Shown: in pieces, positions 12,501 through 58,215 of the stretch
How positions within the stretch are numbered: position 1 is the first letter of the stretch
How the letters are laid out: each line of letters begins with the position of its first letter
Source: Odontesthes bonariensis
Taxonomy: Eukaryota; Chordata; Actinopteri; Atheriniformes; Atherinopsidae
Assembly (NCBI RefSeq): GCF_027942865.1
Contig: NC_134524.1
Span: 3,482,536 to 3,546,535, forward strand
Reading direction: 5' to 3'
Length of the DNA stretch: 64,000 bases
Position numbers and translations under genes: made by a program
Notes under the pieces: generated by a model
Told to the model about the DNA's origin: nothing
Seen by the model: only the letters and a program-made list of their open reading frames with translations
Database searches by the model: none

Positions 12501-15500
12501 CCCCTGTCCTGTTCTTCCCTCTATGCCTGAACTCTATCTCCACCCTGACACCTCTGAGTCTGACTGGTGTTTTTTTTCCTCACTGAAGCTTATTGTTAGC
12601 TTTGATGTTAGCTTTAATGTTACATCCTCATGTGTAAGTCGCTTTGGATAAACTTTGATGCTAAACGCATCAACAACATAACATCAACATATCAGCCAGG
12701 AAATGCTTTGAAGTGTTTAATTTCTGTTATGATAGAATCTTAAATCTGACACTTTACACTTACCCTGTGGCGATCCTTCTCGTCCTCTGAGATATCATCT
12801 GTGTAAATATTTAATCCACTCTTTGATGACATCACCACCCGTTTCATTTGCATGCCGTCCATCATTTCAGAGGCGGATGTTGTTTTAGCCACGCCCACTG
12901 GAGTGTCACTCTGTGCAGGTCACATCATAAAGAGACACAGGAGCTCATTATGTTCGTATCAAAGACGTCAAGATGGACTGTATCTCTGAAATGCTTTGAG
13001 ATGACATTTGATTTGGTTTTATTTATAAATAAAACTGAACTGAACTGAATGTTCACTTGAGCTTCGAGTTCAGCTGGTTTTAGTTGATCCTGAACCTATA
13101 AACTTCTCCAACTTAACTTCAGACGCTGAATTTTCATCTTTAACAACCGTAATGCCACAAAACTCAAATGAGAATCAAAACTAAATGCAATGACTTTTAA
13201 ATCTCATAAAACCAATATTTTATTACTGATAAATCATAGAAACTCGGGCTGGGCAACGATTAAAATGTTTAATCTAATTAATCACAGGATTTCCCTGATT
13301 AATCACGATTAATCTCATTTGTATGCAAAATCCAAAAATGAATCCAAAAGTAGTGTATAGCCTTTAGCATTTAGCTTTATTTTAAATGTGCTGCCATATG
13401 AATGAAAGTGCCATAACATTTGTTGTGCAAACACACTTTTAACATCAGCATCTTTCTGTAGTTTTTATGTAGAAGCCTCGCTCCACTGTCTGTTTCCTTG
13501 AATGACTTGCTGCTATCAGTTGTGTGTTTTGCCTTTAAGTGATATTTTAGACTGGAACTACTACGCTGAGAAGACAATTCAACTTGGCAGTGTTTACAGA
13601 TGACTTTGGTTCTGTCGACTCCGCCGTCTGGAAGAACTTTAACATGAAAATGGCCGAGTAAAAGTTCCGTACCCTTCTCCATGTTTGGTGGATCCGCCGA
13701 TTACTTTCTTTTCCTGTTCCACAGCAGACAGCAACAGACTTTTACAAAATAAAAGCCTGTGAGCAACAGACTTTTACAAAATAAAAGCCTGTGAGCAACA
13801 GACTTTTACAAAATAAAAGCCTGTGAGCAGCAGACTTTGTAGGATAAGCACCTGTTGGGAAGCTTTTATTGCACATCATGGTTTTCACAGGTTGTTTCTC
13901 TCCTTCAACGTTTTTACTGTATAAAAACACCACATGAACACGAGCTGAACTTGTGTAATCTGACAAGAGGTTTGGCCTAAATTCCTTCTACTTGACCTTA
14001 AATTTAATTAATCTTGTCCTAATTGACTGTTATAAATTGGCTTTGTTCTTAGACTTTTTGTATTCATATTCTGTATTTTACTAGATAATCTATGTTCCTA
14101 GTTTGTACTTTTCCACTCTGCTCATACAAACACAATGTGTGTCCAAGACTTTAAGATGACGTAGCGGGATAAAATAACTGGGTCAGATAAAGCGTCTCTA
14201 TTAGGACAGATAGGTCTGGGACAGTAGATATATGCCTGAAAAACAACACTCACATGTTGTTTATCACATCCAAAGAACATGACGAAGACGGTGGATGGCC
14301 TGCTCACATCACCAGCAAATGTCCAATTATACTTTGTCGAGTGTAAGTACAACCTCTGTGAGATAAAGGTGAACATAAATATGAAATGTTTCCGGAAATC
14401 GGAGCTCTGTCACTCCGAGTCCAGCGCTGCTATAAATTGGAACTTTATTTGTCAAGAAGTAAGTTTTATTGTTTAAAAATTCATGCAAAATTAAAATATT
14501 TCCAACTTTTTTATTTTTTATTTTGTTTCTGATTCTGAAAATATTCCAAATATGTTTTCAAGTTATTTCTCCAATAAAACATAATTGTTTACATATTGAA
14601 CATTTATTTCGAAATATCAGGACTTCCTTTCTCAAGACGAAAGAACTTAGGATATTAGAAGTGATATATTCTTTATTTTGATATAAATAGATAGATAGAT
14701 CTCCATCTTTTTTATTCTTAAGAGTTCATTTATATTGTTATTAAAATATTATTATATTATATTGTTACTATTTAATTTTTTTAATAAAATATCATAAGAA
14801 TGTCTGAAGATATTAAATATATAAATAAGTATGTGATATAATATATTATATTCTGTTGATCTTTACACTAAAATATTTTGAATTCATTCTAAAATATTAT
14901 TTTTTTCCCCCAAAATTCTGAAAATATTATTTCTTAAAATATTCCATCATCATTCTGATTGTTTTTTGTGACATTTTGATGAGTTCATATTTTTCTTTTT
15001 CACATATCCTCAAAATATTCCCATTTACATTTAAGAAAATAACATCCTTCTCAATATTGTAATTTTTTTGTAAAATATTACAGAATTTTTCAAATATATA
15101 CCATTTATAAAACATTTAGAAGATGTTACGGGTGTCTCTTATTAATTTCATTAAATATAAATATCACATCCAAAGAACAACCTCTGTGAGATAAAGGTTA
15201 ATATAAATATGAAATGTTTCCGGAAATCAGGGTTCGGTCTGACGGAGGCGCTGCTAAACTTCACATGTGACCGCTATTAAACACTTTGTTTAACTTAAGA
15301 TTTCTCCAGCTTGTTCTTGGGCTTCCAATGAAAGAATCGAGCTAACATTGACCTACAATTAGACTTTGAGAACTTTGTCTTAAAATGTTTTTGTGTTTTT
15401 TTTTTTTTTAAAGAATATGATAATAACTATCACTAACTCTCACTCTTTAGACTTTAAATAAGAAATTTACCTTCTGTCTCCACTTTAATTCTCTTTTTAT

Positions 15501-16303
15501 CTGTTTTTCTGTCTTCAGCCTGGAAGCGGCTCTCCTGAAGCTCGATCCAGAGGACGGCGAGCAGATCATGGAGTATTTTAAAACCCACGCCCTGCTGAGC
15601 AGAGAGAAAGCTCGTAAGGCCAGAAACATGCGAAAGTTACTCATGCTAATTACAGTGCTAGCTTGTTAGCTTAGTAAATCATCAGTAACTGACTGATCCT
15701 TAAAAATAGATCTCAGCCTATTTAAAAGCAAAAAAATGTCACTTCAATGGGTTATTTTACGGCTTTAATTTAAAGCTCACATGTCTGTAACTGAATCAGA
15801 GTTGGATAAAAACAGCACTGCGCCCCCTTGTGGATGAGATGAACGCTTATTTGTTGCAGTGCTGCAGGCGTCGGTCAGAGAGCAGAAGAAGCTGCTGGTG
15901 GAAAACGCCAAACTAAAAAAGGACATCGAACAGCTGAGAACTCAGCTGCAGGACAAGCAGAAGAGGCGGACTGGTATGAAGTCACACACAAACACACAGT
16001 CTGGTTTATTAGGACTGTGGGGACTCGGTTCAGTTATTGGACCGATTCAGGGGGAGCCATTATTTAAATATAAATAATTCCCAATCCGTAAACATCACAT
16101 CAGAAAACCCAACCCAAAAAATAAATAAATAAATTTAAAAAAAATAAAACCCAACCCTAAATCTAACAATGCCTAATCCTAAAACAAAGTATTTGACCTT
16201 TAAGAATGACTTCATCCACTGGGTCAAAAGTACTGTCCCCACATCACAGGAAGTCCCCAAAAGTTGGTGTGAAATCACCTGTCCTCATTATGTCATTAAA
16301 ACA

Positions 16304-16368
<65 letters not shown>

Positions 16369-19300
16369 CATGTTTACATCTATTCCCTAAACCCTTAATT
16401 CCAACTGTTAAATACAATTCTGTTTATACTGCCATAAATATACAGATTTGCCACTGTCGTTTTTATATATCTTTTAGCTTGTATATATATTTTTAATATT
16501 TTTTACCTCCTGCTTTATATATATTATATTTTACTTCATGTTTATTGCTGTTTTGCACTATTTCAATTCTGTGTATGTCCTGCACATATGGCAGCATTGA
16601 CAATAAAGTTGACTAGAAGAACACGAGGAGACATTAAATAAAGAAATAATAAACCAGAGTCACAGACAGCGAGACAAACAGGAGGAAATCAAGAGAAACA
16701 CAACAAATGAATAAATTAAACTGAAGCTGAGTCTAGACGTGTCATAATTCTTCAGAATATTTTCCTACTTTCAGCCCAGTTTAAGCAGAAAATGGGCTAT
16801 TCAGACCTAACGCTAAGTCCTCGTTGATCCAGTCACAAGTGAACGGCTCTCAGTACAGGATGAGGATGGATGAAGGACCCATTCAGACATGGTCCAGGAC
16901 TCTGTTGTCCACATTCGTTTGTCAGTCTGAGGAGAATGTGTCCTCGGACCACCTACAGACCTGATGAGACAGAAATCCTTCTGCTTTTATGTTAATTTCT
17001 GCAGCGACGATGAACAAAGCAGCTGTGAGATCAGCTCCACATCAGCTCTGTTGGTCCTGCCCTTTAACTGGCCTGAACCCAAACAATCCGAGTTTAGGGT
17101 CAAAGACTTTCTTTCTTGTATTCTCTCATCATATCTGCAGCCATTCACTCACTTAAGTTCACAACTATGATCCTCTTGTTTTCACTTCACTGAAGCGTTA
17201 ACTGTCCTCACAGAGACTGAAACACACGGACACCCGCAGCTGTTTCCAGAGGTGGGTAGAGCAGCCAAAAATTGTACTCAAGTAAAAGTACTGTTACTTC
17301 AGAATAATATGACTCAAGTAAAAGTAAAAAGTAGTCATCCAGATAATTACTTGAGTAAGAGTAAAAAAGTGCTCGGTGAAAAAAACTACTCAAGGACTGA
17401 GTAACTGTTGAGTAACGTCTGATTTATTTGTTAACACAAGCATTCAATCAGACAGACAAAAATACTAAATAATCATCTTTAGGCAAATTAGAGTTCATCC
17501 AATTGATAAAATAAATTAAAATAAATTAATTAATTACAAAATAGCTTAAATTAAAATAATCCAGGTAAATTCAAGAACTTCATTAAAAAATAAAAGAGAC
17601 TTAGGAAATGTTTAAAACATCTGTAACCCATATGTAACCTAAAAAACAAACATTCACCTATCCATGGGGGGAAAAAACGAGTTTAGGAAACTTAGCGCTA
17701 CATGTTTCCTCAAGTTAGATGTTGAGTTTCTGCTGAAATGTGCGTTTGTTTTGGTTGACACAGAAGACACATAATGTAGCTGCTGTTTCTCACTCTTTGT
17801 AAGGTAAACATGCTTTCAGTATGAGGCCTCGTCTGCGTCTTCATTTCCCACCGTTGGTTCTGACATTTTTCATCTGTTTCTTTGTTTGTTTGCTACGACT
17901 GCTAATGCTAAAGCTAACCCGTCCCGCCGCTGAGATCGAGTACGGTCACGTGACCAGACTGCACGGCTGCGTCTGATTGGTGGAACACAGTCAGGTGGTA
18001 GAGCCTTTGGTGGAAGTCTCTCTCTCTGTCAGAATAAAACATTAAAATGAGGCGTACGCGGGGGATAAAAATAATGAGGCGTAGAATACCAAAGAGGTAA
18101 GAAGAGAAGTAACCAGCTCATTGTAGCCTAATGTAGCGGAGTAAGAGGACAGTTTCTGCTGCACACATCTACTCAAGTAAAAGTAAAAAGTATAGGGATT
18201 TAAAACTACTCCTTGAAGTATAATTTGTTTTAAAACTTACTCAAGTAAATGTAACTTGTTACTACCCACCTCTGGCTGTTTCACACATTTCAACAACAAA
18301 TCTGTTCATCAACTGAATCAAAGCTTTATCAAGTCAAACCTGGTCAGCAGGGTTACACCAGCCATAGACTTAAAGCTGAAATGCTGCTTTTATTCCTGTT
18401 GATTTAGCATAATTTCTCTCTTTCAGCCAAAGCTTTCTTCTCTCAGGCTCCGCCTCCTAAGAATCTGAGCTCCGCCCCTTCCACATCTGCCAATCAACCC
18501 ACCTCCCCGGCTGCTGTTCCAGCGAATCCTTCTTCCTCCTCTTCATCACAGGAGGGCAGAGAGAAGCAGAGGAGGAGGAGGAGAGGGGAGCGGAAAGGTG
18601 CTATGTCGGGTCCCACCTCAGATTCTATCTCTCTGGGGGCGGAGACTCAGATTGACGCATCACGTCTGGACCTGCGAGTCGGACGAATCCTGAGTGTCCG
18701 CCGTCACTCATTGGCTGAAGCCATGAGCATCCAGGAAGTGGACGTGGGAGAAAACGCCCCCCGGACAGTCGTCAGCAAGCTGGGAGAGAAGACACACCTG
18801 GACGAGGTGACTTTAACTCAAAATATTAATGTTTATGTCTCAAATATTTCAAATTTCTTCTCAAAAATATTTTCACTTTATCCTTCAAGATAATGACCCA
18901 TAAAGCTTATTCTTAATATATCAAGAATTTCTCCTTAAAAATTGGAACTTTATTTCTCCAAGAAGGAACAGTTTTATTGTTTAAAAATTAACACAAAATT
19001 AAAATATTTCCAACTTCTGAAAATATTCCAAATTCACGACTCATTATGTTTTCAAGTTATTCCTCTAATAAAACATAATTATTTACATATTGAACATTTA
19101 TTTTTGAAATATCAGGACTTCAGTTTTCAAGAAGAAAGAACTTAGGATATTAGAATATTTATAAGTGATATGTTCTTTATTTTGATATAAATAGATAGAT
19201 AGATCTCCATCTTTTTTATTCTTAAGAGTTCATTTATATTGTTATTAAAATATCATTATTATATTATATTTTTGCTATTTTATTTTTTTAATAAAATATC

Positions 19301-21621
19301 ATAGGAATGTCTGAAGATATTAAATATATGAATAAATAAATATAAAATATATTATATTATATTCTGTTGATCTTAACACTAAAATATTTTGAATTAATTC
19401 TAAAAATGTTCTTTTTTCCCCAAAAAGTCTGTAGATATTATTTCTTAAAATATTCCATCATCACACATTTTCATGAGTTCATATTTTTCTTGAAATATTT
19501 TCACATATCCTCAAAATATTCCTATTTACATTTTAAAAAAACATCCTTCTCAACATATTGTAACTTTTTTCTAAAATATTATAGCATTTTTAAAATAAAA
19601 AACATTTAGAAAGCATTTAGAAGATGTTACGGGTGTCTCTTATATGATATAGAATAACAGAACCGTATTTATATATTTATTTATTTTAAATTAAAACGTG
19701 CACCACTTCTCTCCGCAGCTGCAGGGCTCTCTGGCTGTGTTGCTTTGCAACGTCAAGGCCTCTAAGATGAGGGGCGTGGCCTCTCAGGCGCGCCTCCTGT
19801 GTTGCTCCACCTCTGATGACTGCGTCGAGCTTCTGGCTCCGCCTACAGGCTCCGTCCCTGGAGACAGAGTCACCTTCCTCAGCTACCCCGGTAACCATGA
19901 CGACATCATGACTGATACACTCATAAGCAGTCTTAGAACAGAGCAGGCTAACAAGGCGTTGCCCCGGTAACAGGAGCAGGTGTCTGTGTCACTGATATGT
20001 ACGCTCACTATGGCTTCTTAAAATCGCACTATAATTTTGACTGCACTCGACTGTCTCAAACAAACGGTCGCTGTTCGAAAAGTAAAAGTTGTATCCAAAT
20101 AATTCTTGAACCGTCAGCACCCCAAGAGACAGCAGAAGCCAGCAGTGTAATTTTCATTCGGCTACTATGTTTGGCTCGTTTTTTATGGCAGTTTTAGAAT
20201 AATTTTTCACCTCAATTTGATGATTTCAGGCCTTTATAATGGAAATGGAGAGGCGACCTCTGGGCTCAGAGGCAATTTCTAAGAAATATGTGTGGCAGAG
20301 CTCAATGAGTGTGACTTTGGGTGAAAGAGGACAAAAATGCCTACGTTTTGAAGTAAAATTTGTCCAGATCGGGCAGATATTTTGGACATGAGAGACATTT
20401 GTTCGAGGAATTGGTGCAGTGTCGAATTTACAGTGGCGGTTTGAGTGGGAGAGACACCTTTGAGTGGGAGATGCAGTCTTCCTAAAACACAAACTGCCGT
20501 TGTGTCAAAGCTGTATAATGTATCAACAAACCCTTTGGTTCAGTTAAAGCCGAGAGTCTCCTGTCACATATAAACTTTGAATGAGGTCTGTGCGATGCTT
20601 TATGGCTGAGTTATAAGGCCTCCAAAATAGGGTAGTGTCATATGTTGTTCTGTAAACGTCTCTTTTCACTTCCTTAGATCTGCTCTTACGGACAACAGAT
20701 GATGGCTGTGTTCAAAACCGCATACATACTACATACTACATACTACATACTACATACTACATACTACATACTACATACTACATACTTCCATACGGCATAC
20801 TGATATACGCAGAGCGTTTTCCCACAATGCATTTCGCTCCTGCCCGAGCCAAAATGAGCCGGCCTGAAGCTGATTTCTCTTAAGCTCTAAACTCTGTAAA
20901 CTTTAGCAACATTTGAAACATTTTCAGGCGAGAAAGTAGTCGTTTAGATCCCCAACATTTTGAGAATCTGACAAAATACCCGCTATTTACAATTTTGTTC
21001 CCACGAAATCGGCGCTACTAAAGCTAGCCGCAGTGAGCAACGCACTTCCGGTTATTTTCACAAAATAAAATACCCGTTGCCTTTTATCATAGGGAAAGCC
21101 ATTACGATACAATTTTGTTTTGAAAACAGGAAGTGAACCTACCCTCGTTGTAGCTAGCTTGAAACTGCCGTTTTGACAGGAAATGACGATCGGCGACGTC
21201 ACGTTACGTTGCATCTTGGGTAGTTTGAGTATGAGTAGTAACCTCATGATGCATACCCAACATTTCGGAGAATCTAGTATGCATCCGGGAACTTCTCGCT
21301 TACTCAAACTCGCATACTAACTCAAAAAGTTAGTAGGAGTAGTAGGAGAAGTATGCGGTTTCGAACACAGCCCTCGTCATACATCCACCAAATTTACTCG
21401 TTTGTCAAACGGTTCACGAGTCTTCCTTCGCTCTCTGTGTGTTTGTGCGTTCAGGAGAACCGGACCGGGAGCTGCAGTCCAAGCCGAGGCTCTGGGAGCT
21501 TCTGCAGCCCGACCTGAAGGTGGACAGCAAGGGCGTGGCCAACTACAAAGGCTGCGCGTTCGAGGTGAAGGGGAAGGGGCTGTGCAGGGCGCCCTCCTTC
21601 ACCAACTGCACCATCAGATAA
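6490..21621 (+). CDS. aimp1: aimp1, aminoacyl-tRNA synthetase complex-interacting multifunctional protein 1 (six exons)
   Basis: AIMP1/p43 is a scaffold of the cytosolic multi-tRNA-synthetase complex. Its N-terminal helix is known to bind arginyl-tRNA synthetase, and its C-terminal EMAP II domain is a tRNA-binding OB-fold that can be released as a cytokine. The coding sequence joins 6490-6539, 15519-15613, 15860-15973, 18427-18806, 19719-19890 and 21455-21621, giving 325 codons plus TAA (human protein 312 aa). Every join has GT-AG ends and matching phase. Residues 17-86 form the predicted coiled coil (LVENAKLKKDIEQLRTQL). About 87-160 is a Ser/Pro linker with an Arg run. About 162-325 is the EMAP II domain, with IDASRLDLRVG, EVDVGENAPRTVVS, KMRGVASQA, APPTGSVPGDRVTF and YKGCAFEVKGKGLCRA. 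Whether this is the aimp1a or aimp1b paralogue cannot be told. Confidence 0.92.
6540..7440. other. aimp1 intron 1, proximal part
   Basis: No exon or recognised repeat apart from a T-run at 7191-7205. The overlapping open frames at 6937-7182 have no domain similarity I recognise. Confidence 0.5.
7443..7570 (-). mobile_element. Retroelement 3' tail (reverse orientation)
   Basis: The reverse complement of the tail at 16490-16618: both contain 'gttttgcac', 'caattctgtgta' and 'gcacatatggcagcattgac'. It is a dispersed non-LTR retroelement end. Confidence 0.55.
7706..8302 (+). mobile_element. Terminal-inverted-repeat DNA element, truncated copy
   Basis: Begins CAGTGGGGTCACATGGCACT, the same terminus found inverted at both ends of the copy at 29909-30543. 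Similarity to that copy (opposite orientation) runs to about 8302 and then stops, so the far end is missing. The element contains the 81-bp tandem repeat and a segment with ACGTGGTGAATCAGACTTTG shared by both copies. Confidence 0.65.
7730..8053 (+). repeat. 81-bp tandem repeat, four copies
   Basis: The unit starting GGATCAGATTATTGGCTAAA recurs at 7730, 7811, 7892 and 7973 with only a few substitutions. Since 81 is a multiple of three, the array is open and translates as four 27-residue repeats (WLNYNQTELLSACRHLNLTK). In the other element copy this subterminal sequence is present once, so the array grew after insertion. Confidence 0.85.
8303..8984. other. aimp1 intron 1, no feature seen
   Basis: No exon or recognisable repeat. 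Confidence 0.5.
8985..9642 (+). mobile_element. PIF/Harbinger-like MITE, copy 1
   Basis: Ends are inverted: GGCTGGGTTCGAAACCGCCT at the left and the reverse complement GGCTGTGTTCGAAACCGCCT at the right. The flanking 3-bp TAT (8982-8984 and 9643-9645) is a plausible target duplication. Near one end it carries ATGTAGT/ATGCAGT microsatellite units. Related copies lie at 20704-21372, 46655-47312 and 52767-53468, with a fragment at 26486-26721. Confidence 0.75.
9650..9892 (+). mobile_element. Fragment of a LINE 5' region
   Basis: Contains GGTAGGGTCTCCCAAGGCAA, 'gggatcagactaagag' and 'gatggagaaggacaac'. From memory these belong to the leader before the endonuclease domain of a widespread fish LINE; the family name is not certain. 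The same segment occurs inside the two long TTAA foldback elements at 26060-26990 (reversed) and 42040-42215. Confidence 0.55.
9893..10866 (+). repeat. 22-bp G-rich minisatellite, about 44 units
   Basis: Unit CCAGGGGGAGGAGCTCCACC plus AA or its ATCAT variant, repeated without interruption. Each unit has a run of five or six G and a GAGCTC palindrome. It grew inside the LINE 5' fragment. Open frames across it (9830-10492 plus, and two on minus) are by-products of a repetitive sequence with few stop codons. Confidence 0.93.
10960..11180 (+). mobile_element. L2-like LINE fragment
   Basis: Encodes HKSLMLAYRVLNGTAPIFLN, typical of the C-terminal part of L2-type ORF2. Similarity decays after about 11180. 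Confidence 0.55.
11699..11952 (+). mobile_element. L2-type LINE 3' end nested in the foldback arm
   Basis: Interrupts CCGGCTAG/TTGGCTGG, which is continuous in the other copies. Contains 'gtaaagcactttggtacac' and ends 'gctgaataaataaaat', a standard L2-type tail. Confidence 0.7.
12052..12235. repeat. Inner hairpin of foldback copy 1
   Basis: Arms of about 57 bp (GTCAGACCTCACAATCGCTT ... and its near-complement) enclose a ~70-bp spacer. The same hairpin is at 25881-26043 and 42233-42395. Confidence 0.8.
12466..12690 (+). mobile_element. Retroelement 3' end
   Basis: Contains 'gtgtaagtcgctttggata', a common fish retroelement tail motif. No open frame. Confidence 0.35.
13246..13725 (-). mobile_element. 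hAT-type transposon remnant with BED zinc finger
   Basis: The left end GGGCTGGGCAACGATTAAAA is a known hAT-type terminus in fish. Minus-strand frame 13682-13377 encodes a BED finger: CKHC near the middle, then YHLKAKH (Cys-x2-Cys ... His-x4-His). BED fingers are the DNA-binding N-termini of hAT transposases. The catalytic domain is absent. Confidence 0.7.
13731..13826 (+). repeat. 32-bp tandem repeat, three copies plus a partial
   Basis: Unit GCAACAGACTTTTACAAAAT ... repeats at 13731, 13763 and 13795, with a degenerate partial from 13827. Confidence 0.85.
14262..15229 (+). repeat. Direct repeat pair with a 72-bp length difference
   Basis: ATCACATCCAAAGAAC plus CCTCTGTGAGATAAAGGT and ATGAAATGTTTCCGGAAATC occur at 14262-14400 and again at 15162-15229. 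The first copy has 72 extra bases (14279-14350) exactly between the two blocks; that insert begins ATG and ends in a GTAAGTAC donor-like motif. Confidence 0.7.
14434..15142 (+). repeat. AT-rich ~705-bp dispersed repeat, copy 1 (aimp1 intron 1)
   Basis: Starts AAATTGGAACTTTATTT and ends AGATGTTACGGGTGTCTCTT. It matches 18939-19643 along its length with small indels. No coding frame or terminal inverted repeat is seen. Confidence 0.8.
15519..15613 (+). CDS. aimp1: aimp1 coding exon 2
   Basis: Acceptor 'tctgtcttcag', donor CTC|GTAAGG. Encodes LEAALLKLDPEDGEQIMEYF and the following THALLSREKA, which aligns with the human EADQIIEYLKQQVSLLKEKA region. Confidence 0.88.
15860..15973 (+). CDS. aimp1: aimp1 coding exon 3 (coiled coil)
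   Basis: Acceptor 'tttgttgcag', donor CTG|GTATGA. Encodes LLQASVREQKKLLVENAKLK, then KDIEQLRTQLQDKQKRRT, a leucine-zipper-like helix very close to human AIMP1. Confidence 0.92.
16306..16366 (+). repeat. (CA)n microsatellite
   Basis: An uninterrupted CA/AC run of about 30 units in aimp1 intron 3. The histidine/threonine open frames across it are artefacts. Confidence 0.95.
16490..16618 (+). mobile_element. Retroelement 3' tail
   Basis: Ends 'gacaataaagttgact'. It is the same tail as at 7443-7570 (reversed) and resembles the end at 5275. Confidence 0.55.
16619..17246. other. aimp1 intron 3, no feature seen
   Basis: No exon or recognised repeat. Confidence 0.5.
17247..18274 (+). mobile_element. 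hAT-type MITE, copy 1, with 8-bp target duplication
   Basis: 1028 bp, ends CAGAGGTGGGTAG / CTACCCACCTCTG. Flanked by a perfect 8-bp direct repeat GCTGTTTC (17239-17246 and 18275-18282), the hallmark of hAT insertion. Subterminal 'actcaagtaaaagta' motifs repeat at both ends. It has no transposase, so it is non-autonomous. A second copy of the same length is at 27971-28998. Confidence 0.9.
18427..18806 (+). CDS. aimp1: aimp1 coding exon 4 (linker and start of EMAP II domain)
   Basis: Acceptor 'ttctctctttcag', donor GAG|GTGACT, phase 0 at the end. The first half is low-complexity Ser/Pro, then an Arg-rich patch (EKQRRRRRGERKG). The second half opens the tRNA-binding domain. An in-frame ATG at 18603 (Met146) lies between the two halves. 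Confidence 0.9.
18939..19643 (+). repeat. AT-rich ~705-bp dispersed repeat, copy 2 (aimp1 intron 4)
   Basis: Matches 14434-15142. It fills most of intron 4 and stops 75 bases before exon 5. Confidence 0.8.
19719..19890 (+). CDS. aimp1: aimp1 coding exon 5 (EMAP II core)
   Basis: Acceptor 'cttctctccgcag', donor CCG|GTAACC. Encodes LLCNVKASKMRGVASQARLL and SVPGDRVTFLSYP, the OB-fold core of the EMAP II domain. Confidence 0.93.
19891..20703. other. aimp1 intron 5, no feature seen
   Basis: No exon or recognised repeat. Minus-strand frame 20492-20226 has no known domain. Confidence 0.5.
20704..21372 (-). mobile_element. PIF/Harbinger-like MITE, copy 2
   Basis: Same family as 8985-9642 but inverted. 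It has about eight ACTACAT units next to its left end (20730-20790). The ends are GGCTGTGTTCAAAACC and its complement. It ends only about 80 bases before aimp1 exon 6. Confidence 0.75.
21455..21621 (+). CDS. aimp1: aimp1 coding exon 6 (C-terminus)
   Basis: Acceptor 'gtttgtgcgttcag'. Encodes GEPDRELQSKPRLWELLQPD through FTNCTIR and TAA at 21619-21621. It aligns along its full length with the human AIMP1 C-terminus. Confidence 0.93.
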
Positions 21622-22586: not shown

Positions 22587-23315
22587 CTGAGAGCCAAAAC
22601 AAACACAAATATGACCTGTAAATAAATAAAGACACAAAACATCCAACGAGAGACAAAAAACTACAAAAACACAGCAGGAAGAATGAAAAGGGACTCAAAA
22701 TATCCACAAAAACTATACCAAATGAAACAAAGGGCACAAAACCAAAGGACGAACTTAAAAAACAACCTAAAAGTTAAACAAAAAGGCTGAAAACAATCCT
22801 TTGGTTGTTTGTGTGTTTGTGTACCTCTGTGTGCTGCTGCAGGTGTGTGTTTTCACGCAGCAGGTCGGCTCTCACAACAATCACGAGCACGTGCACACCC
22901 TCGGGGCAGAGCTTGTGCACACTTTGTGCGTGGGGCCTCTCAGGGGGCGTGTCTATCACTCTCAACCCGAGGTCAGACTCCGCCCCCTGCCTCCTGAAAT
23001 ATTTTGGAAAATTTCGCCCGAGCAGCCGACATTCGGTTTCCGTCGGAACTCCAGGAGCCCCGCGGCCCGTCCGGAAGTCGTGAGCACCTGTGAAAATAAT
23101 ATTTATTGATTTATTTTACACAAAGTTCTTTACAAGAATCACAATGTTCTGAAGAGAAACTGACCAATCAGAGCATTCCCGACAGAGCTCCTCCCACTCT
23201 GCCCGTCGCCTAGCAACAACACATTCAAGACCAGCGCATTCTGCTCGTCAGATTTGTTGCTCAGGATATGAAGTGGGGTGTTTCCATGGATACGGTGCTT
23301 GTCACGGCGATCCAT
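22311..23315 (-). CDS. gimd1: gimd1, GIMAP family P-loop NTPase domain protein 1 (three exons)
   Basis: A small GIMAP/AIG1-type GTPase-like protein whose cellular role is poorly known. The coding sequence joins complement 23165-23315, 22825-23087 and 22311-22586: 229 codons plus TGA (human about 217 aa). Both introns are GT-AG and in phase. Residues 36-44 form the P-loop GDGQSGRSS, with Arg42 where the family has Lys. VIDTP (94-98) is the switch II/G3 motif and THAD (154-157) the G4 position. The block ECRLLGRNFPKYFRRQGAES and the LFGPVWYNHALLVITHADHL segment align with mammalian GIMD1. The start ATG at 23315 follows a pyrimidine-rich 'gtttccttcag', so a further upstream exon is possible. The gene converges on aimp1 and shares orientation with dkk2. 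Confidence 0.85.
22825..23087 (-). CDS. gimd1: gimd1 coding exon 2
   Basis: Acceptor 'tattattttcacag', donor GAG|GTACAC. Encodes AHDFRTGRGAPGVP ... RVIDTPPERPHAQ ... VLVIVVRADLL, residues 51-138. Confidence 0.85.
23165..23315 (-). CDS. gimd1: gimd1 coding exon 1 (P-loop)
   Basis: Encodes residues 1-50 and ends ATTG|GTCAGT. Before the P-loop it holds HGNTPLHIL, an ankyrin-repeat-like phrase. An acceptor-like AG immediately precedes the ATG. Confidence 0.8.
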
Positions 23316-23736
23316 CTGAAGGAAACAACAAAAACAAGGTTTGATTTTGTCTTTTCAGGGTCTGAACAAAGATCTTCGTGTGCTCTCTGTCTACATGTTG
23401 TAGTGTTTTGCTGCCATTTGGGGACCATCTCAGAAATAAGTGGAACAGTCTGAGCTGTGGGAAACTCTTGGTTGTTTTGGGGCTGTTGTTGGACCTTTAG
23501 CTTTGCTGGAAAAGACAGAAGTCAAAGTAGACAAAGATCTGCTTTGGCATGAAGTGAAACTAGATGTTAAACCTTAGCTTCTTTGCTATTTAAAGTTTTG
23601 TTGTCTTTGTTGTGAACTCAGTTGTTGTCAGCCCCTTCTGGCTTTATTTAGCTGAGATAACTTCAAAGTTATTCAGAGGTCAGATATGATGGGAGTGAAT
23701 TGGAATTCGTGCGATTTCAGAGAAAACTACGAAGCC
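23316..23736. other. Upstream of gimd1, no exon seen
   Basis: Possible gimd1 promoter or 5' UTR intron. No TATA box or conserved coding block seen. Confidence 0.4.
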
Positions 23737-24057: not shown

Positions 24058-25635
24058 AGAACAGTGGTGTAAAAGAAGACAGAAACGCCAATGTTTTGGT
24101 GTAGAGAATAACTTAACAGCATCAAACTGATTTGAAACAAAACAAAAACCAATCTGAATACTTTACAAGGTCAAATTATGATTAAGATTAATCAAACTTA
24201 AACTGAGATTGCATAGAAACCTTAAAAGGCATGAAAATAAAAGTCCAAGCCAGCATATGTGCAGGACATACAGCTAAATATACACGGTGAAATATGAAGA
24301 AACAGCAGAGAAATAATGGAATAAAATAACACTCAGTGGAAAAAAAGAATATTAACATCTGAATAGATAGGGCAGTAATAGGCAGTAATTACACAAGGTT
24401 CATTACAGATAAGGTAACGTAGTGTAAATAAAGCAGCCGGTGCAGCCCCTGAGTTTGTTTGTCCAACTTCCTGTCACTCGTTTATACTTTAAATAATGTT
24501 TCTGCTGATGCCGGAGCGGCCGGACTCCAAAGATGGCCGGGTTTCTCTCTCTGTGATGGTTGAGCTGCAACATTTTCGATGTGTTTTCTAAAAGCTTATG
24601 AAACGTTATCAGCAGAATCTTAATAAGTGTGCCCTTTAGTTTTGGTTTGGCACCTTTAAAATAATCCAGACAGCAAACACAATCCTCGTCGCAGTCACAG
24701 AACACTCAACTTTCTTTGGATTTGTCTAAATTGTACAAAATTTGACGACCAAACTGAGGTTTAACTCTATGAATGTGCCTTACATTTAAACACGAATAAC
24801 AGCGAGTCTTACCTGCTCTACCTGCAGAGGAGAACAGAGACACGCTTCCTGGACTGATCAATACGGGAGGTTGTGTGTTTGCGTAGGTGTGGTAACTGGT
24901 TAAAATATAACCGATCCGAGCCGTCTGCCGCGGCCTTATCAGGTCATAAAAGTGTTGCACTTCTCCGCAGTTTGGTGCGTCTACAGTTTTAAAGGAAGCG
25001 AACACCAGACCAACAGGAGTTGATTGAACTGTGAATGTGAAGCAGATCGCTGTGTTGGTAAAGTTGGATTCAAAGCCGTCCTCGGGCTGCCGCACAGAGA
25101 AGCATCTGAAGCATCACCATCTGTTCCCAGTTTTTCCTGAAAGTGAGCTGATAGCATCTTCCCTTCCAAACTACGCCCACAGACGTATCCTGCTGCTGTG
25201 CATGTGACTCCCTCATTGATCATGCAATCTGAAGGGCTTTATTGTGAGAATTAAAACGAGTCCGGCTTCAAACGGTCCTTTGGCTGTTGTTCAGACCAAT
25301 GCTTTCTGTGTTCCTCGGATGCCCCACATCACAGAATGATGTCACAGCACACGGTTTGCTCAACTATTGATTGTTTTACCAGTTGATGAGAAAGTATTTC
25401 GCTGTGTCGTGCAGACAAACTACAGCAACGTGCTCGGAGAAGCTGTGCAGCACGACTTTATGGGGCTGAAAAACAGAATATTCAGCCAAGAACGCGTTAA
25501 CATTTTTCCACTAACTAATAATCTGTACAATGAGCACGTTTAGGACTGATGGTACGGATATATTTTACATTGCAAAGCAAATCTGAAGTGATTTTATTTT
25601 ACTTTATTTGAACATAAATGTGAATCAGACCTGGT
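24058..25635. other. Intergenic, unassigned open frames
   Basis: A retroelement tail in reverse lies near 24250-24330. Minus-strand frame 25095-24706 (129 codons) contains GTAAGA after SAGRAG and could be an exon with a donor, but I recognise no domain and see no convincing acceptor. The rest shows nothing. Confidence 0.4.
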
Positions 25636-25880
25636 TTAAAGGGATAGTTCGCCTCTTTTGACATGAAGCTGTATGACATCCCATATCAGCAACATCATTT
25701 CTGAACATCTTCTTCCCCCCTGCTGCGTCCTGTGAGCAGAGTTCCAGCCTCGTTTTGGTGTTGATGAAGGTAGTCCGGCTAGTTGGCTGGGGTTTAAGAA
25801 ATAAAGCGTTTTGCTTCTCAAAACAATATGCGTTCAACAGAGTAATACATTTGCATCACAAAATGGTTCTCCAGGAAAAA

Positions 25881-26043
25881 GTCAGACCTCACAATCTCTT
25901 GGCCCTATTTTCTCTCCCTTCGTATCACTGCCTGCTGTGCAGACCGAGCAGCAAACACTGTAACAGGTGCGGCTGTCGGCAGGCGGCAGCAGGCAGTGAT
26001 ACGAAGGGAGAGAAAATAGGGCAAAGAGATTGTGAGGTCTGAC
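25881..26043. repeat. Inner hairpin of foldback copy 2
   Basis: Arms GTCAGACCTCACAATCTCTT ... and complement, with a ~50-bp spacer. Homologous to 12052-12235 and to 42233-42395. Confidence 0.85.
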
Positions 26044-36759: not shown

Positions 36760-37154
36760 TCAGCTTCTCTGACACACGTGAAGTCTCATCTTTGCCACGG
36801 CTGAAGAGGATTTTGCTGACGATGGCAACGAGGAAGAGGAGAGCATTGAGGTGTGGGGAGCGGAGTGCCGAGACGAGGACGAGGACGCGGCAAACTTGGA
36901 CTTTGCAGCCAGCAGCAAAGACGGAGATGGAGTCAGAGGCTTGGTGCTGGAGTCCTGCAGAGTCCGGCAGCTCAGTCCGTCCCCGCAGGTGCAGCGCTGG
37001 AACAGCTCCAGTCCGTGGTGTCCCTTACGCCGTTGTCGTGTGCAAACCTGTCCCTCTCGCAGCACCGGTTTGCAGATGCGAGTCCAGAAGTGGCGGGCGC
37101 AGCACAAAGTGTCCGAGCAGTCTGAGGATCTTAGGCAGGGATCTCCGACCTGAC
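36760..37154 (-). CDS. dkk2: dkk2 coding exon 4 (second Cys-rich domain)
   Basis: Acceptor 'tgcgtttccag'. Encodes [20 protein letters not shown] through LHVCQRS and TGA at 36762-36760. The insertion lies about 36790-36940 and stays in frame. Confidence 0.92.
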
Positions 37155-40100
37155 CTGGAAACGCAGAAACAGAAAGGTGTGAAGGAAGCGGCAGACTTAC
37201 AAGCAAATGAATCGATAAAAAAACCCAGTAAGGAGAGCTCACCTTTGCTGGAGGATCTCTTGATGCTCACGCTCTCTTTCTTCCTCCAGCCTTTCTTTTT
37301 GGACAGTGGATTCACGTCTTCTCCAGTGATCCTCTGAGATGGAAAACTTTCCACATCAGGAACGCATTTATCTGCAAATAAAGAAGAAAAACAACATATT
37401 TAACTCCGCCTTCCAGAAATAAATCATCCTGGATTAGAATCGATTGTCTTTAAAGGATAATCTTACTGATGCTGCAGCGGTTGCCCGGGCAGCACATGCC
37501 ATCCCTATGGCAACGCCTGTTCCTCCTGCGGCAGGTCTGGCAGCGGGAGTGGACGGGACCTTTGGTGGGAACGTGGCAGTAGCTCCCCTCGCTGCACTCC
37601 AGGTCGCTCATGCACTGGTAGAGCTGCGGAGAAACCCAGAGATGTCACCATGAGCCTTTAAATCCGACTGTAACAACACTCAGAAACCCCAAGATGTCAC
37701 CCTGAGCCTTTAGATCTGACTGTAACAACACCCAGAAACCCCAAGATGTCACCATGAGCCTTTAGATCTGACTGTAACAACACTCAGAAACCCCAAGATG
37801 TCACCATGAGCCTTTAAATCCAACTGTAACAACACCCAGAAACCCCAAGATGTCACCCTGAGCCTTTAGATCTGACTGTAACAACACTCAGAAACCCGGA
37901 GATGTCACCATGAGCCTTTAAATCCAACTGTAACAACACCCAGAAACCCCAAGATGTCACCCTGAGCCTTTAGATCTGACTGTAACAACACTCAGAAACC
38001 CGGAGATGTCACCATGAGCCTTTAGATCTGACTGTAACAACACTCAGAAACCCGGAGATGTCACCATGAGCCTTTAAATCCAACTGTAACAACACCCAGA
38101 AACCCCAAGATGTCACCCTGAAACTTTAAATCTGACTGTAACAACACTCAGAAACCCCAAGATGTCACCCTGAGCCTTTAGATCCGACTGTAACACTCAG
38201 AAACCCCAAGATGTCACCATGAGCCTTTAGATCTGACTGTAACAACACTCAGAAACCCGGAGATGTCACCATGAGCCTTCAAATCCAACTGTAACAACAC
38301 CCAGAAACCCCAAGATGTCACCCTGAGCCTTTAGATCTGACTGTAACAACACTCAGAAACCCCAAGATGTCACCATGAGCCTTTAAATCTGACTGTAACA
38401 ACACTCAGAAACCCGGAGATGTCACCATGAGCCTTTAAATCCAACTGTAACAACACCCAGAAATCTGGAGATGTCACCTAGAGCCTTTAAACCCGACTGT
38501 AACACTCAGAAACCCGGAGATGTCACCATGAGCCTTTAAATCCGACTGTAACAACACCCAGAAACCCCAAGATGTCGCCATGGGCCTTTAAATCCGACTG
38601 TAACAACACTCAGAAACCCAGAGATGTCATCATGAGCCTTTAAATCCAACTATAACAACACTCAGAAACCCCAAGATGTCGCCATGGGCCTTTAAATCTA
38701 CCTATAACAACACTCAGAAACCCCAAGATGTCACCCTGAGCCTTTAGATCTGACTGTAACAACACCCAGAAACCCCAAGATGTCACCATGAGCCTTTAGA
38801 TCCGACTGTAACACTCAGAAACCCGGAGATGTCACCATGAGCCTTTAAATCCGACTGTAACAACACTCAGAAACCCCAAGATGTCACCATGAGCCTTTAA
38901 ATCCGACTGTAACACTCAGAAACCCCAAGATGTCACCATGAGCCTTTAAATCCGAATGTAACACTCAGAAACCCGGAGATGTCACCCTGAGCCTTTAGAT
39001 CCGACTGTAACACTCAGAAACCCGGAGATGTCACCTAGAGCCTTTAAATCCGACTGTAACAACACTCAGAAACCCCAAGATGTCACCATGAGCCTTTAAA
39101 TCCGACTGTAACACTCAGAAACCCGGAGATGTCACCATGAGCCTTTAAATCCGACTGTAACACTCAGAAACCCCAAGATGTCACCATGAGCCTTTAAATC
39201 CGACTGTAACACTCAGAAACCCCAAGATGTCACCATGAGCCTTTAAATCCGACTGTAACACTCAGAAACCCGGAGATGTCACCTAGAGCCTTTAAATCCG
39301 ACTGTAACAACACTCAGAAACCCCAAGATGTCACCATGAGCCTTTAGATCCGACTGTAACACTCAGAAACCCGGAGATGTCACCATGAGCCTTTAAATCC
39401 GACTGTAACACTCAGAAACCCGGAGATGTCACCATGAGCCTTTAAATCCGAATGTAACAACACTCAGAAACCAGGATATGTCACCTTGAGCCTTTAGATC
39501 CGACTGTAACACTCAGAAACCCCAAGATGTCACCCTGAGCCTTTAGATCCGACTGTAACACTCAGAAACCCCAAGATGTCACCATGAGCCTTTAGATCTG
39601 ACTGTAACAACACTCAGAAACCCGGAGATGTCACCATGAGCCTTCAAATCCAACTGTAACAACACCCAGAAACCCCAAGATGTCACCCTGAGCCTTTAGA
39701 TCTGACTGTAACAACACTCAGAAACCCCAAGATGTCACCATGAGCCTTTAAATCTGACTGTAACAACACTCAGAAACCCGGAGATGTCACCATGAGCCTT
39801 TAAATCCAACTGTAACAACACCCAGAAATCTGGAGATGTCACCTAGAGCCTTTAAACCCGACTGTAACACTCAGAAACCCGGAGATGTCACCATGAGCCT
39901 TTAAATCCGACTGTAACAACACCCAGAAACCCCAAGATGTCGCCATGGGCCTTTAAATCCGACTGTAACAACACTCAGAAACCCAGAGATGTCATCATGA
40001 GCCTTTAAATCCAACTATAACAACACTCAGAAACCCCAAGATGTCGCCATGGGCCTTTAAATCTACCTATAACAACACTCAGAAACCCCAAGATGTCACC

Positions 40101-43019
40101 CTGAGCCTTTAGATCTGACTGTAACAACACCCAGAAACCCCAAGATGTCACCATGAGCCTTTAGATCCGACTGTAACACTCAGAAACCCGGAGATGTCAC
40201 CATGAGCCTTTAAATCCGACTGTAACAACACTCAGAAACCCCAAGATGTCACCATGAGCCTTTAAATCCGACTGTAACACTCAGAAACCCCAAGATGTCA
40301 CCATGAGCCTTTAAATCCGACTGTAACACTCAGAAACCCCAAGATGTCACCATGAGCCTTTAAATCCGAATGTAACACTCAGAAACCCGGAGATGTCACC
40401 CTGAGCCTTTAGATCCGACTGTAACACTCAGAAACCCGGAGATGTCACCTAGAGCCTTTAAATCCGACTGTAACAACACTCAGAAACCCCAAGATGTCAC
40501 CATGAGCCTTTAAATCCGACTGTAACACTCAGAAACCCGGAGATGTCACCATGAGCCTTTAAATCCGACTGTAACACTCAGAAACCCCAAGATGTCACCA
40601 TGAGCCTTTAAATCCGACTGTAACACTCAGAAACCCCAAGATGTCACCATGAGCCTTTAAATCCGACTGTAACACTCAGAAACCCGGAGATGTCACCTAG
40701 AGCCTTTAAATCCGACTGTAACAACACTCAGAAACCCCAAGATGTCACCATGAGCCTTTAGATCCGACTGTAACACTCAGAAACCCGGAGATGTCACCAT
40801 GAGCCTTTAAATCCGACTGTAACACTCAGAAACCCGGAGATGTCACCATGAGCCTTTAAATCCGAATGTAACAACACTCAGAAACCAGGATATGTCACCT
40901 TGAGCCTTTAGATCCGACTGTAACACTCAGAAACCCCAAGATGTCACCATGAGCCTTTAAATCCGACTGTAACAACACTCAGAAACCCCAAGATGTCACC
41001 ATGAGCCTTTAAATCCGACTGTAACAACACTCAGAAACCCCAAGATGTCACCCTGAGCCTTTAAATCCGACAGTAACAACACTCAGAAACCCCAAGATGT
41101 CACCATGAGCCTTTAAATCCGACAGTAACAACACTCAGAAACCCCAAGATGTCACCCTGAGCCTTTAGATCTGACTGTAACAACACTCAGAAACCCCAAG
41201 ATGTTACCATGAGCCTTTAAATCCGACTGTAACACTCAGAAACCCGTCCAGTTCGAAGTCAAAGCAAGCGTTTGTTGCTGCTTCCTGCTGGACGTGTATA
41301 GCATGTTTATCTGTGTTTTATAGCGCATTTAAATCAAATTCAGTGTGAATCTGAACTGTATTCACTCTGAATTTGATTTAAATGCGCTATAAAACATGGA
41401 TAATCATGTTTATTGCGTACAGACTGAGCTTCTTGCCTCCAAACATAAAACATTTAACTAGAAATTTCGAATACGCCGTCTCTCCTGCTCTGTAACGAGC
41501 TGAAAGCAGCACTGACATGTCATGTTCGGTCCGAAAGGGCCAAAGTACGTCCTGCCAACCAAGTCTGAAGTGTCCAAACAGCTTTAAAATATTCTAAAAT
41601 AAATCAGAAATATTGTGACAATCCCTCTGATTCAGTTTGGTGCTTTTAATGGGTTTGTTTACATGTTGTAAAAGGTTTGTTAATAAAGTTTGAGACATTC
41701 AAGAGGTGATAAAGTTTCACATTGTAACAGCCTTAATGACCTTTAAAGGGACAGTTCGCCTCTTTTGACATGAAGCTGTATGACATCCCATATCAGCAAC
41801 ATCATTTCTGAACATCTTCTTACCCCCTGCTGCGTCCTGTGAGCAGAGTTCCAGCCTCGTTTTGGTGTTGATGAAGGTAGTCCGGCTAGTTGGCTGGGGT
41901 TTAAAAAATAAAGCGTTTTGTTTCTCAAAACAATATGCGTTCAACAGAGTAATACATTTGCATCACAAAATGGTTCTCCAGGAAAAAATGAAAAATGTAT
42001 GAAAGGATTGTGAGTACGAAAACAAACAATCACAGTGTTGTTTCTTCAAGTATCACTTCATTAGCATAGCATGCTAAAGCTTGATGTGTAAACAGATATT
42101 ATGATCCTGAGAGCTGTGCTGTTGGGGCATTTGCCCCCTGGTTGGGTCTCCCAAGGCAAACTAGTCTCAGGGGAGGGATCAGACTAAGAGTGATAAAGAC
42201 CTTTATCTATAAAGACAAAGAAACAGGAAAAAGTCAGACCTCACAATCTCTTGGCCCTATTTTCTCTCCCTTCGTATCACTGCCTGCTGCCGCCTGCCGA
42301 CAGCCGCACCTGTTACGGTGTTTGCTGCTCGGTCTGCACAGCAGGCAGTGATACGAAGGGAGAGAAAATAGGGCCAAGAGATTGTGAGGTCTGACTTTTT
42401 CTGGATGAGCGATTTTGTGATGCAAATGTATTACTCTGTTGAACGCATATTATTTTGAGAAGCAAAACGCTTTATTTTTTAAACCCCAGCCAACTAGCCG
42501 GACTACCTTCATCAACACCAAAACGAGGCTGGAACTCTGCTCACAGGACGCAGCAGGGGGTAAGAAGATGTTCAGAAATGATGTTGCTGATATGGGATGT
42601 TACACAGCTTCATGTCAAAAGAGGCGAACTATCCCTTTAATGACCTTAAAGGTTGAAAAGATGTAATATTCATGATGATGAAATTCAAAAGGTTTAAACA
42701 TCACATCAGTCCTGTCAATAAAATAAACTTAAATTAAACTGTAAATGTTTTTTTTTTAACGGTTTAACTCACAGAAAAGTCATTATTTGACACTTCTGTG
42801 AGTTATTTAAGTAGAAGAAGTAAGGCGTGAAGGAAACGTGCACGCACTCACCGTCAGGTCCACGTTCGGCTCCCACGCGCTCCTGTTTCCGGGGAGCGGG
42901 TGACCCTCGCGCAGGATCACGGTTCTGATGGAGTTCAGCCTGACGCGCGCCTCCGCGCGCCGGGAACACGCCAGGAGCACGAGCCCGACGCTCACCATCA
43001 GCACCAGCTGATGGCCCAT
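36760..43019 (-). CDS. dkk2: dkk2, Dickkopf-type secreted Wnt modulator (four coding exons)
   Basis: Dickkopf proteins are secreted and bind LRP5/6 and Kremen to tune canonical Wnt signalling. The coding sequence joins complement 42852-43019, 37467-37623, 37243-37371 and 36760-37154: 282 codons plus TGA (human DKK2 259 aa). All introns are GT-AG and in phase. Residues 1-24 are a signal peptide ([14 protein letters not shown]). LNSI and NRSA (N-glycosylation site at Asn45) match the DKK2 N-terminus. CRD1 (60-111) has all ten Cys with [22 protein letters not shown]2 (158-279) has [25 protein letters not shown] and [12 protein letters not shown], then the final LHVCQ. Between Cys 9 (214) and Cys 10 (279) there are 64 residues instead of 16 in human, an insertion of about 48 Ser-rich residues. 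Synteny with aimp1/gimd1 supports dkk2 over dkk1 or dkk4. Confidence 0.9.
37243..37371 (-). CDS. dkk2: dkk2 coding exon 3 (inter-domain linker)
   Basis: Acceptor 'tctttatttgcag', donor AAAG|GTGAGC. Encodes [15 protein letters not shown] and a basic [10 protein letters not shown] stretch, joining CRD1 to CRD2. Confidence 0.88.
37467..37623 (-). CDS. dkk2: dkk2 coding exon 2 (first Cys-rich domain)
   Basis: Acceptor 'gggtttctccgcag', which is also the end of the adjacent minisatellite; donor ATCA|GTAAGA. Encodes [20 protein letters not shown] through [11 protein letters not shown]. Confidence 0.92.
37630..41246. repeat. 49/52-bp minisatellite, about 70 units, in dkk2 intron 1
   Basis: Unit CTCAGAAACCCCAAGATGTC plus ACCATGAGCCTTTAAATCCG and ACTGTAAC(AACA). 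Variants alternate CCCCAAGATG/CCCGGAGATG, CATGAG/CCTGAG and 49/52-bp length. It begins immediately beside exon 2, and its first unit includes the acceptor's pyrimidine tract. Marker variants repeat at a spacing of about 1365-1414 bp, revealing a higher-order duplication. Confidence 0.97.
41315..41395. repeat. Near-perfect palindrome, 36-bp arms, 9-bp loop
   Basis: Arms 41315-41350 and 41360-41395 pair with one mismatch (GTTTTATAGCGCATTTAAAT ...). The loop is CTGAACTGT. Weaker complementarity extends about 25 bp further out on both sides. It lies just upstream (in dkk2 sense) of the minisatellite. Confidence 0.92.
41747..42636. mobile_element. TTAA foldback element, copy 3 (890 bp, complete ends)
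   Basis: Starts AGGGACAGTTCGCCTCTTTT after TTAA (41743-41746) and ends with the inverted partner before TTAA (42637-42640). Inside: left arm, LINE 5' segment (42040-42215, forward), inner hairpin (42233-42395), right arm. It is the same design as copy 2 in the opposite orientation. It lies in dkk2 intron 1. Confidence 0.87.
42233..42395. repeat. Inner hairpin of foldback copy 3
   Basis: Arms GTCAGACCTCACAATCTCTT ... and complement; the spacer is the reverse complement of that in copy 2, as expected from the element's orientation. Confidence 0.85.
42852..43019 (-). CDS. dkk2: dkk2 coding exon 1 (signal peptide)
   Basis: Starts in a CCATGG context two bases after a splice acceptor (TTGTTTTGCAG), so translation begins at the start of the second transcript exon. 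Ends ACG|GTGAGT, phase 0. Encodes residues 1-56. Confidence 0.88.
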
Positions 43020-45132: not shown

Positions 45133-45329
45133 GCTGCATTCAGGGGTCACTGGTAAATCCCACTGATAATAGCTGCCTCATATGAAGCGTTGGCAGACAA
45201 TCGGTGCATTTACAGATCAGCTTACCAACCTGGAGCTACGGCTCCTCTTCTTCACTGTGACCTGACACTGGTTCGGTTTGGGCCTCAGGACTTCAGCCGC
45301 TCACATCAGAGTAAAAACTCTGGAATTAA

Positions 45330-45662
45330 AGGGACAGTTCGCCTCTTTTGACATGAAGCTGTATGACATCCCATATCAGCAGCATCATTTATGAACATCT
45401 TCTTACCCCCTGCTGCGTCCTGTGAGCAGAGTTCCAGCCTCGTTTTGGTGTTGATGAAGGTAGTCCGGCTAGTTGGCTGGGGTTTAAAAAATAAAGCGTT
45501 TTGCTTCTCAAAACAATATGCATTCAACAGAGTAATACATTTGCATCACAAAATCATTCTCCAGGAAAAAGTCAGACCTCACAATCTCTTGGCCCTATTT
45601 TCTCTTTAAACCGCAGCCAACTAGCCGGACTACCTTCGTCAACGCCAAAACGAGGCTGGAAA
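45330..45662. mobile_element. TTAA foldback element, copy 4 (truncated)
   Basis: Left end AGGGACAGTTCGCCTCTTTT after TTAA (45326-45329). The left arm is intact, but the hairpin is cut at 'cctattttctct' and joined to part of the right arm, which itself stops near 45660. Confidence 0.8.
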
Positions 45663-56745: not shown

Positions 56746-57504
56746 GTCTGTTGGATATTTTTCCTTCGTGCTGTTAATAACTTTGTTTTATGTTCATGCT
56801 GCTTTAGATGTTTGTTTTCAGAAAAACATCCTGTTATTACTTTAGTTAAGTTAGTTTACCTGATTAATTATGAGGGACATTTGCTGCTTAGAGCAACTCT
56901 CCAGATAAGAAGGATTAGGAGCAGCATGCACCGGGGAAGGCAGATGGTTCTTTACTTGAAAAAGAGAAGTAACAAGAGGAAGGGAAAGTTTGTTTTTGTT
57001 TTTTTGCAACCCCCCACCTCCTGTAGTTGCTTGCAGGGTCATTTTAAGGGTTATTTAAGATAATCCTGCAAGTAGTAGAGCTAAGGAAATATAACTGGTT
57101 TGAATTCATATCAGTAATTGTTGATATAATAAGCCCAAACTACTCTGTAAAAGAGAGCTGCTGGTGTTCTGAGTCTGTTTTGAGCCGGATTCCTCACCAA
57201 CGCTCATGTGAGTCACAGTTCAAAGAGAAAGAACTCAACAGTCCGTCTGTAATCTCACGGATAATCAGATCATAAACCGTTTGGCAGCTAAAGGATCGAC
57301 AGTTTATGATGAAGTTAACTGCAGTGGTTCAGAGATCGATTACAGTTGGTCGAGTCCAGCTTCTGCAGGGAAGGTAGTTTGACCTTTGAACTCTGATCTG
57401 AGGAGGAAGGCAGAAACTCTGCTGTACAACAGCCGGACATGTTCACATTTACATGTGAATGAACCGGAGACGTGAGGTCTGGATGCAGAGTCTGTTTTCT
57501 CCTG
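56746..57504. other. Intergenic, no feature seen
   Basis: No exon or recognised repeat. Confidence 0.45.
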
Positions 57505-58045: not shown

Positions 58046-58215
58046 TGTTCAGGGTCACTCACATGCTTTTATCCACCAGTGATCTCACATTTCCCATGAT
58101 GATTGAGGGAAGAAATAAGGGTTTAAACTTCCTCCTCCTTTTCCTCCATGTTGTTCCTGCTCTGCATCCTAGACGTCTCCTCTTCATCCCATCCGGATTT
58201 GGCCTGGAGCTCAAG
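58046..58215 (-). mobile_element. Inverted Rex1-like LINE 5' segment
   Basis: On the minus strand it encodes SIIMGNVRSLVDK and the preceding leader, homologous to 52530-52670 on plus. It is joined head-on to the RT fragment. Confidence 0.65.

Follow-up and report, generated by a model that had tools for sequence, protein, structure and literature searches.

The window analysed here, a stretch of 64,000 nucleotides of the Odontesthes bonariensis genome (contig NC_134524.1, hereafter C24, positions 3,482,536–3,546,535), carries on its minus strand a complete Dickkopf gene in which the second cysteine-rich domain (CRD2) has 64 residues between its ninth and tenth cysteines. The usual dkk2 loop occurs elsewhere in this genome, in a canonical dkk2, and it is a second gene that carries the long one. 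The presence of that canonical copy, and the recognition that the window gene is a duplicate, form the main new result. The window gene is probably an intact but divergent dkk2b, an ohnologue from the teleost whole-genome duplication, in which the loop grew from 16 to 64 residues while receptor binding was retained.

The gene extends from position 43019 to 36760 of the window, and its four exons, when joined, give 849 nt and 282 residues, with no stop or frameshift, intact splice dinucleotides and every CRD cysteine kept. Features of the Dickkopf DKK1/2/4 family are present: CRD1 (Dickkopf_N) retains ten cysteines, and CRD2 has subdomains 1 and 2, also with ten cysteines. The top solved structural relative is mouse DKK2 CRD2 (2jtk). 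The NXI(R/K) motif found in exon 1 is described in PMC6078440. The CRD2 cysteine spacings are 5, 4, 0, 8, 9, 16, 1, 5 and 64, and the PF21479 match stops at profile position 36 of 50, where the insert starts. Exon joining confirmed the original prediction of 64 residues between Cys9 (residue 214) and Cys10 (residue 279) in a frame ending LHVCQRS, and the span to which an insertion had been assigned (36785–36945) falls within this loop. The ∼16-residue interval usual in DKK2, a family-usual length that is not taken here as defining, is absent from the window gene.

To place the gene, its CRD2 protein sequence was compared with the whole genome (187 contigs, 945 Mb). This gave ten matches at E ≤ 10. 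Three were strong, namely the window gene itself and two further loci, C2:17830425 and C4:13170997. The C4 gene has a nearly mammalian DKK2 CRD2 (57/63 residues identical to mouse DKK2) and a 16-residue loop (KVWKDATSSSKSRLHM). Mouse DKK2 (2jtk) ends in SCKVWKDATYSSKARLHVCQK, likewise with a 16-residue loop, and the loop of the window gene is ∼48 residues longer. The C2 gene has a DKK1-like CRD2 and a 21-residue loop; in human DKK1 the interval is 17 residues. The original prediction spoke of the DKK2 gene; the Dickkopf identity holds, although the gene is actually one of two dkk2-type genes in the genome. Whether the long loop is uniform across fish dkk2 proteins is thereby answered in part, since within its own genome the canonical C4 copy has 16 residues vs. 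64 in the window gene. Two weaker CRD2 matches look like dkk3 and draxin. In the presumed draxin-like domain (C7:1753329) the matching last Cys–Cys interval has 19 residues, the first six of them alanines, which hints at length variation in other members of the fold too. Matches ranked below DKK (toxins, prokineticin, colipase, IGFBP and draxin) were taken as a shared small-disulfide fold, and nothing was drawn from them.

Serine accounts for 21 of the 64 loop residues. All serine codons except one are TCN, with every third base represented, and the only tandem-repeat remnant inside the insert is a 6-bp unit in 2.7 copies. A blurred short repeat and mixed third bases are as expected of an old slippage tract eroded by substitution. 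The loop alone found no match in the PDB (E ≤ 1) or Pfam (E ≤ 1). Within the window it had no second copy at the protein level and a single, chance-like DNA match of 17 nt, and no relatives were found in the public collections viral_contigs and genome_contigs. A literature search, which left most subscription journals outside its scope, returned no relevant paper on a dkk2 paralogue or on a fish Dkk2 with a serine-rich insertion. An acidic antisense open reading frame (ORF) of 123 codons (36782–37153, plus strand) lies across from CRD2 and the insert; its acidic run is taken to be the TCN serine codons read in reverse.

The segment could be a short intron that is spliced out to leave a loop of normal length, as the original prediction had allowed. 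The open frame is uninformative by itself: when the 192 nt were shuffled 5000 times with dinucleotides preserved, a fraction of 0.51 also came out open, and one of the two other loop frames is open as well. Serine codons, however, numbered 21 in the coding frame vs. 4 and 9 in the others; this count was reached in the coding frame by 0.0002 of the shuffles, a value that rests on a frame noticed for its serine-richness, and in any frame by 0.001. The G+C content of the insert (58.3%) is exon-like, with 62.2% in CRD2 up to Cys9 vs. 31.6% in intron 2 and 44.3% in intron 3; exon 3 (45.7%) is the exception among exons, and 4.2% of all 144-nt segments match or exceed the insert. In favour of splicing, the minus strand is pyrimidine-rich and a single site at 36815 resembles an acceptor fairly well (score 3.3). 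From Cys6 onward, 75 GT-AG pairs at least 40 nt apart were tested; 11 of them lead back to the CQRS end, and all ten cysteines survive in 7 of those 11. All seven nevertheless share one acceptor, before 36784, that scores −13.4, vs. 3.6, 12.5 and 9.0 for the real acceptors of the gene, on an approximate splice matrix that gives the real exon-2 donor only −0.2. The top-scoring pair of at least 50 nt (36895/36816) shifts the frame and loses Cys10, and C4 dkk2 is open across the corresponding stretch, with no intron. The poor sole acceptor, the exon-like G+C content and the bias of serine codons toward the coding frame make a hidden intron appear very unlikely, and we infer that the insert is translated.

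These data support, at the level of sequence, a coding loop expansion in a divergent second dkk2-type gene. The part of the original prediction that concerned a coding expansion is thus supported, although a novel N-glycosylation or furin cleavage site is not: N-sequons, R-X-[KR]-R motifs and dibasic pairs are all absent from the loop. In human DKK1, by comparison, an N-glycan sits at the corresponding hairpin tip.

Equal exon 3 length, the best linker match, the affinity of CRD1 and synteny favour a teleost-duplication ohnologue. CRD1 is closest to C4 dkk2, with 33 identities vs. at most 28 for the other four rows. The linker alignment score was 48 with C4 dkk2, whereas human DKK2, DKK1 and DKK4 scored 23, 23 and 9.5, respectively (the linker of the own dkk1 was left out). 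On C24 the order is an SGMS gene (3473242, minus), AIMP1 (3502230, plus), dkk (3519298, minus) and complement factor I, CFI (3581186, minus); on C4 it is AIMP1 (13134942, plus), dkk2 (13170997, minus), PAPSS1 (13236664, minus) and SGMS2 (13245726, plus); and on C2 it is dkk1 (17830425, minus), SGMS (17948603, minus) and PAPSS2 (17985836, plus). The SGMS1/2 and PAPSS1/2 labels are putative assignments from linkage. AIMP1 and dkk have the same order and strand on C24 and C4, and three of the four DKK2 neighbours AIMP1, SGMS2, PAPSS1 and CFI have a counterpart beside the window gene (AIMP1, an SGMS gene and CFI). In trees, which rest on short domains and on provisional human sequences, the window gene stands together with both DKK2 rows when both domains are used (support 48/5), and in the approximately unbiased (AU) test this grouping was not rejected (p 0.156 for CRD1, 0.277 for CRD2). 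With mouse DKK2 as outgroup, the rate test was 12 to 2 against the window copy (p 0.013).

Several results weigh against a teleost-duplication origin. In CRD2 the window gene is identical to C2 dkk1 at 52/63 residues and to C4 dkk2 at 47/63; its identity to human DKK1 is 50/69. Human DKK2 and C4 dkk2 group to the exclusion of the window gene (support 99/98 for CRD2, 91/94 for both domains), and a sister pairing of the window gene with C4 dkk2 is rejected by the AU test for CRD2 (p 0.026) and, weakly, for the two domains combined (p 0.045). Grouping with both DKK1 rows was not rejected (p 0.50 for CRD1, 0.39 for CRD2, 0.37 for both domains), nor was grouping with DKK4 (p 0.21, 0.308 and 0.38, respectively). 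The rate asymmetry is gone with DKK1 outgroups (5 to 6 and 3 to 9). The SGMS gene changes both its strand and the side of the block that it flanks between C24 and C4, and the APS-kinase (PAPSS) gene was found in the own-genome search on C4 and C2 and not on C24.

Part of this evidence would be accounted for if the insert were coding in an older paralogue that dates from the duplications early in vertebrate history; this could be a fourth member of DKK1/2/4, since lost, or the DKK4 counterpart of fish. Besides the AU results in CRD2 for C4 dkk2 and DKK4, such an origin would fit the DKK1 residues at several CRD2 sites (of 15 sites at which DKK1 and DKK2 differ, 6 are DKK1-like and 5 DKK2-like) and the SGMS gene on C24, which is about equally far from the C4 copy (66%) and the C2 copy (64%). 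Human DKK4 agrees with DKK1 at some of the DKK1-like sites. PMC6078440 states that Dkk4 occurs only in mammals and reptiles, so that a fish counterpart could have been overlooked. The linker match to DKK4, however, was equalled by 9.7% of shuffles, and the grouping with both DKK2 rows, which the AU test did not reject, also speaks against an older origin. The linker exon, CRD1 and the exon 1 NRSA motif point to dkk2, and CFI, which in human lies at 4q25 near DKK2, sits on C24. An older paralogue is therefore a distinctly less probable origin, and dkk2b is ranked ahead of it, without certainty, mainly from synteny, linker and CRD1. Still more doubtful is a bolder form of the same idea, in which a third, unrecognised fish DKK1/2/4-type gene predates the teleost duplication, keeps ancestral CRD2 residues and uses a cationic serine-rich loop for a unique receptor or matrix interaction.

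The copy might also be decaying toward a pseudogene, with the insert as neutral decay. The divergence of both the dkk copy and the neighbouring AIMP1 copy (57% identity to C4 AIMP1 over 62 residues) would agree with this, as would the low-complexity insert; the AIMP1 divergence also means that the whole region may evolve fast. Against decay stand the intact reading frame, splice dinucleotides and CRD cysteines, and the nonsynonymous and synonymous differences of CRD2 from the other two copies (pN 0.13–0.19, pS 0.56–0.84); synonymous sites are saturated in the comparison with C4, however, and a pairwise ratio combines the changes of two lineages. Decay, which is compatible with either origin and so overlaps the other readings, is judged highly improbable. 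Recent CRD2 gene conversion from dkk1 was considered and rejected, the synonymous divergence (dS) between the window gene and C2 dkk1 being about 1.0. A site with Ser in DKK1 and Thr in the window gene argues against conversion in general, although an old event is possible.

Under the dkk2b reading, a dkk2 duplicate would have been kept after the teleost whole-genome duplication, and slippage-prone TCN codons together with point change would then have lengthened the tip of the last CRD2 β-hairpin from 16 to 64 residues. The status of a divergent duplicate is the likeliest reason for which the insert would have been tolerated.

The insert replaces the hairpin tip of CRD2, which seems to be unmodelled in a DKK1 crystal structure. 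All nine LRP6 and Kremen contact residues tested in CRD2 are kept in the window gene; Lys222 is present as Arg. Contact positions were those given in PMC5014086 (Kremen) and, for part of the LRP6 set, in PMC9532339. In an AlphaFold2 model (mean predicted local distance difference test (pLDDT) score 60.4, predicted template modelling score 0.42) the loop is coil, mostly with a pLDDT below 50; this model was built from a single sequence, which counts against the reading that it is used for. The tip would be disordered and outside the named Kremen contacts, and the loop base (R-L-H before Cys10) is kept along with the other tested residues. With its contact residues kept and the tip outside the Kremen contacts, the protein would be expected to fold normally and to remain a Wnt antagonist that binds LRP5/6 and Kremen. 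Most likely, then, as far as can be judged from sequence, the insert is a disordered expansion of the loop that the protein tolerates with no loss of core binding. A basic, serine-rich loop beside the LRP6-facing edge may at most tune affinity, O-glycosylation or near-cell retention.

Compared with vertebrate DKK2 (mouse 2jtk and C4 dkk2), the window gene has in common the four exons (as in C4), NXI(R/K), CRD1, the linker, a ten-cysteine CRD2 and the tested LRP6/Kremen residues; it differs in the loop (64 vs. 16 residues), and its CRD2 shares several residues with DKK1 instead. With DKK1 (3s2k, 5fww and C2 dkk1) it shares a similar CRD2, although CRD1 and linker differ and the C2 gene is on another contig. 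A lineage-specific length change is also reported for avian and reptilian Dkk2, where PMC10606412 gives an insertion of 14 residues, much shorter than the insert in the window gene. MyoD1 of Acanthopterygii, a developmental gene that is duplicated in fish, likewise has a low-complexity, serine-rich insert in one of its copies; the authors of that study cite duplicated genes as gaining low-complexity sequence at a higher rate (PMC10204381). In contrast, MyoD1 is an intracellular transcription factor, and its insert lies between domains and not within a disulfide-bonded hairpin.

The Dickkopf CRD2 is compact, disulfide-locked and strongly conserved, and here a natural loop four times longer stands beside a canonical copy in one genome. 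Such a long-loop/short-loop pair offers a ready way to ask whether the hairpin tip packs inertly or tunes the binding of LRP6/Kremen, and it marks a place at which low-complexity growth may be tolerated in duplicated signalling antagonists. In stickleback, Dkk2 overexpression strongly lowers new tooth formation (PMC10730089), so that a second, divergent dkk2 could matter for the division of a tooth-related pathway in fishes.

Table 1. Exons and CRD2 landmarks of the window dkk gene, and the neighbouring AIMP1 copy (window coordinates)
Feature	Position	Strand	Evidence
Exon 1: signal-like N-terminus and NSIR (NXI[R/K]) motif, then NRSA	42852..43019	−	Joined-exon translation
Exon 2	37467..37623	−	Pfam Dickkopf_N E 1.3e-16 (CRD1)
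Exon 3: linker, 129 nt, equal in length to exon 3 of C4 dkk2	37243..37371	−	
Exon 4 with CRD2	36760..37154	−	Pfam PF21481 E 2.6e-20, PF21479 E 4.9e-19; PDB 2jtk E 2e-32
Cys9 codon of CRD2, residue 214	36967..36969	−	
Cys9–Cys10 loop, 64 residues, includes the ∼48-residue Ser/Ala/Lys-rich insert	36775..36966	−	
Cys10 codon of CRD2, residue 279	36772..36774	−	
Diverged AIMP1 copy, several exons, syntenic marker	15451..21618	+	tRNA_bind Pfam in two exons; AIMP1 structures E 3e-19, one exon

The outer exons of the AIMP1 copy are putative assignments. A 52-bp minisatellite of about 71 copies (37630–41245) takes up much of intron 1 of the dkk gene and extends as far as the polypyrimidine tract that precedes exon 2 (acceptor at 37623). 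In 61 of its units the end is TGTTACAG, which is acceptor-like, and none of the 61 scores as high as the real exon-2 acceptor. A dispersed repeat with a recurring protein reading occurs at 41720–42663, 45309–45606, 25628–26039 and other places in the window and its flanks, and repeats of the GEELHHPGGGAPPSRG type form a long array at 9821–10927 in which several frames of the plus strand are open. The open stretch at 57476–58096 (plus strand) matches Pfam ALKBH8_N (E 3.2e-13), a domain common at the end of non-LTR (long terminal repeat) reverse transcriptases. An ORF at 23142–23354 (minus strand), with no Pfam match, resembles the start of a GIMD1-type GTPase.
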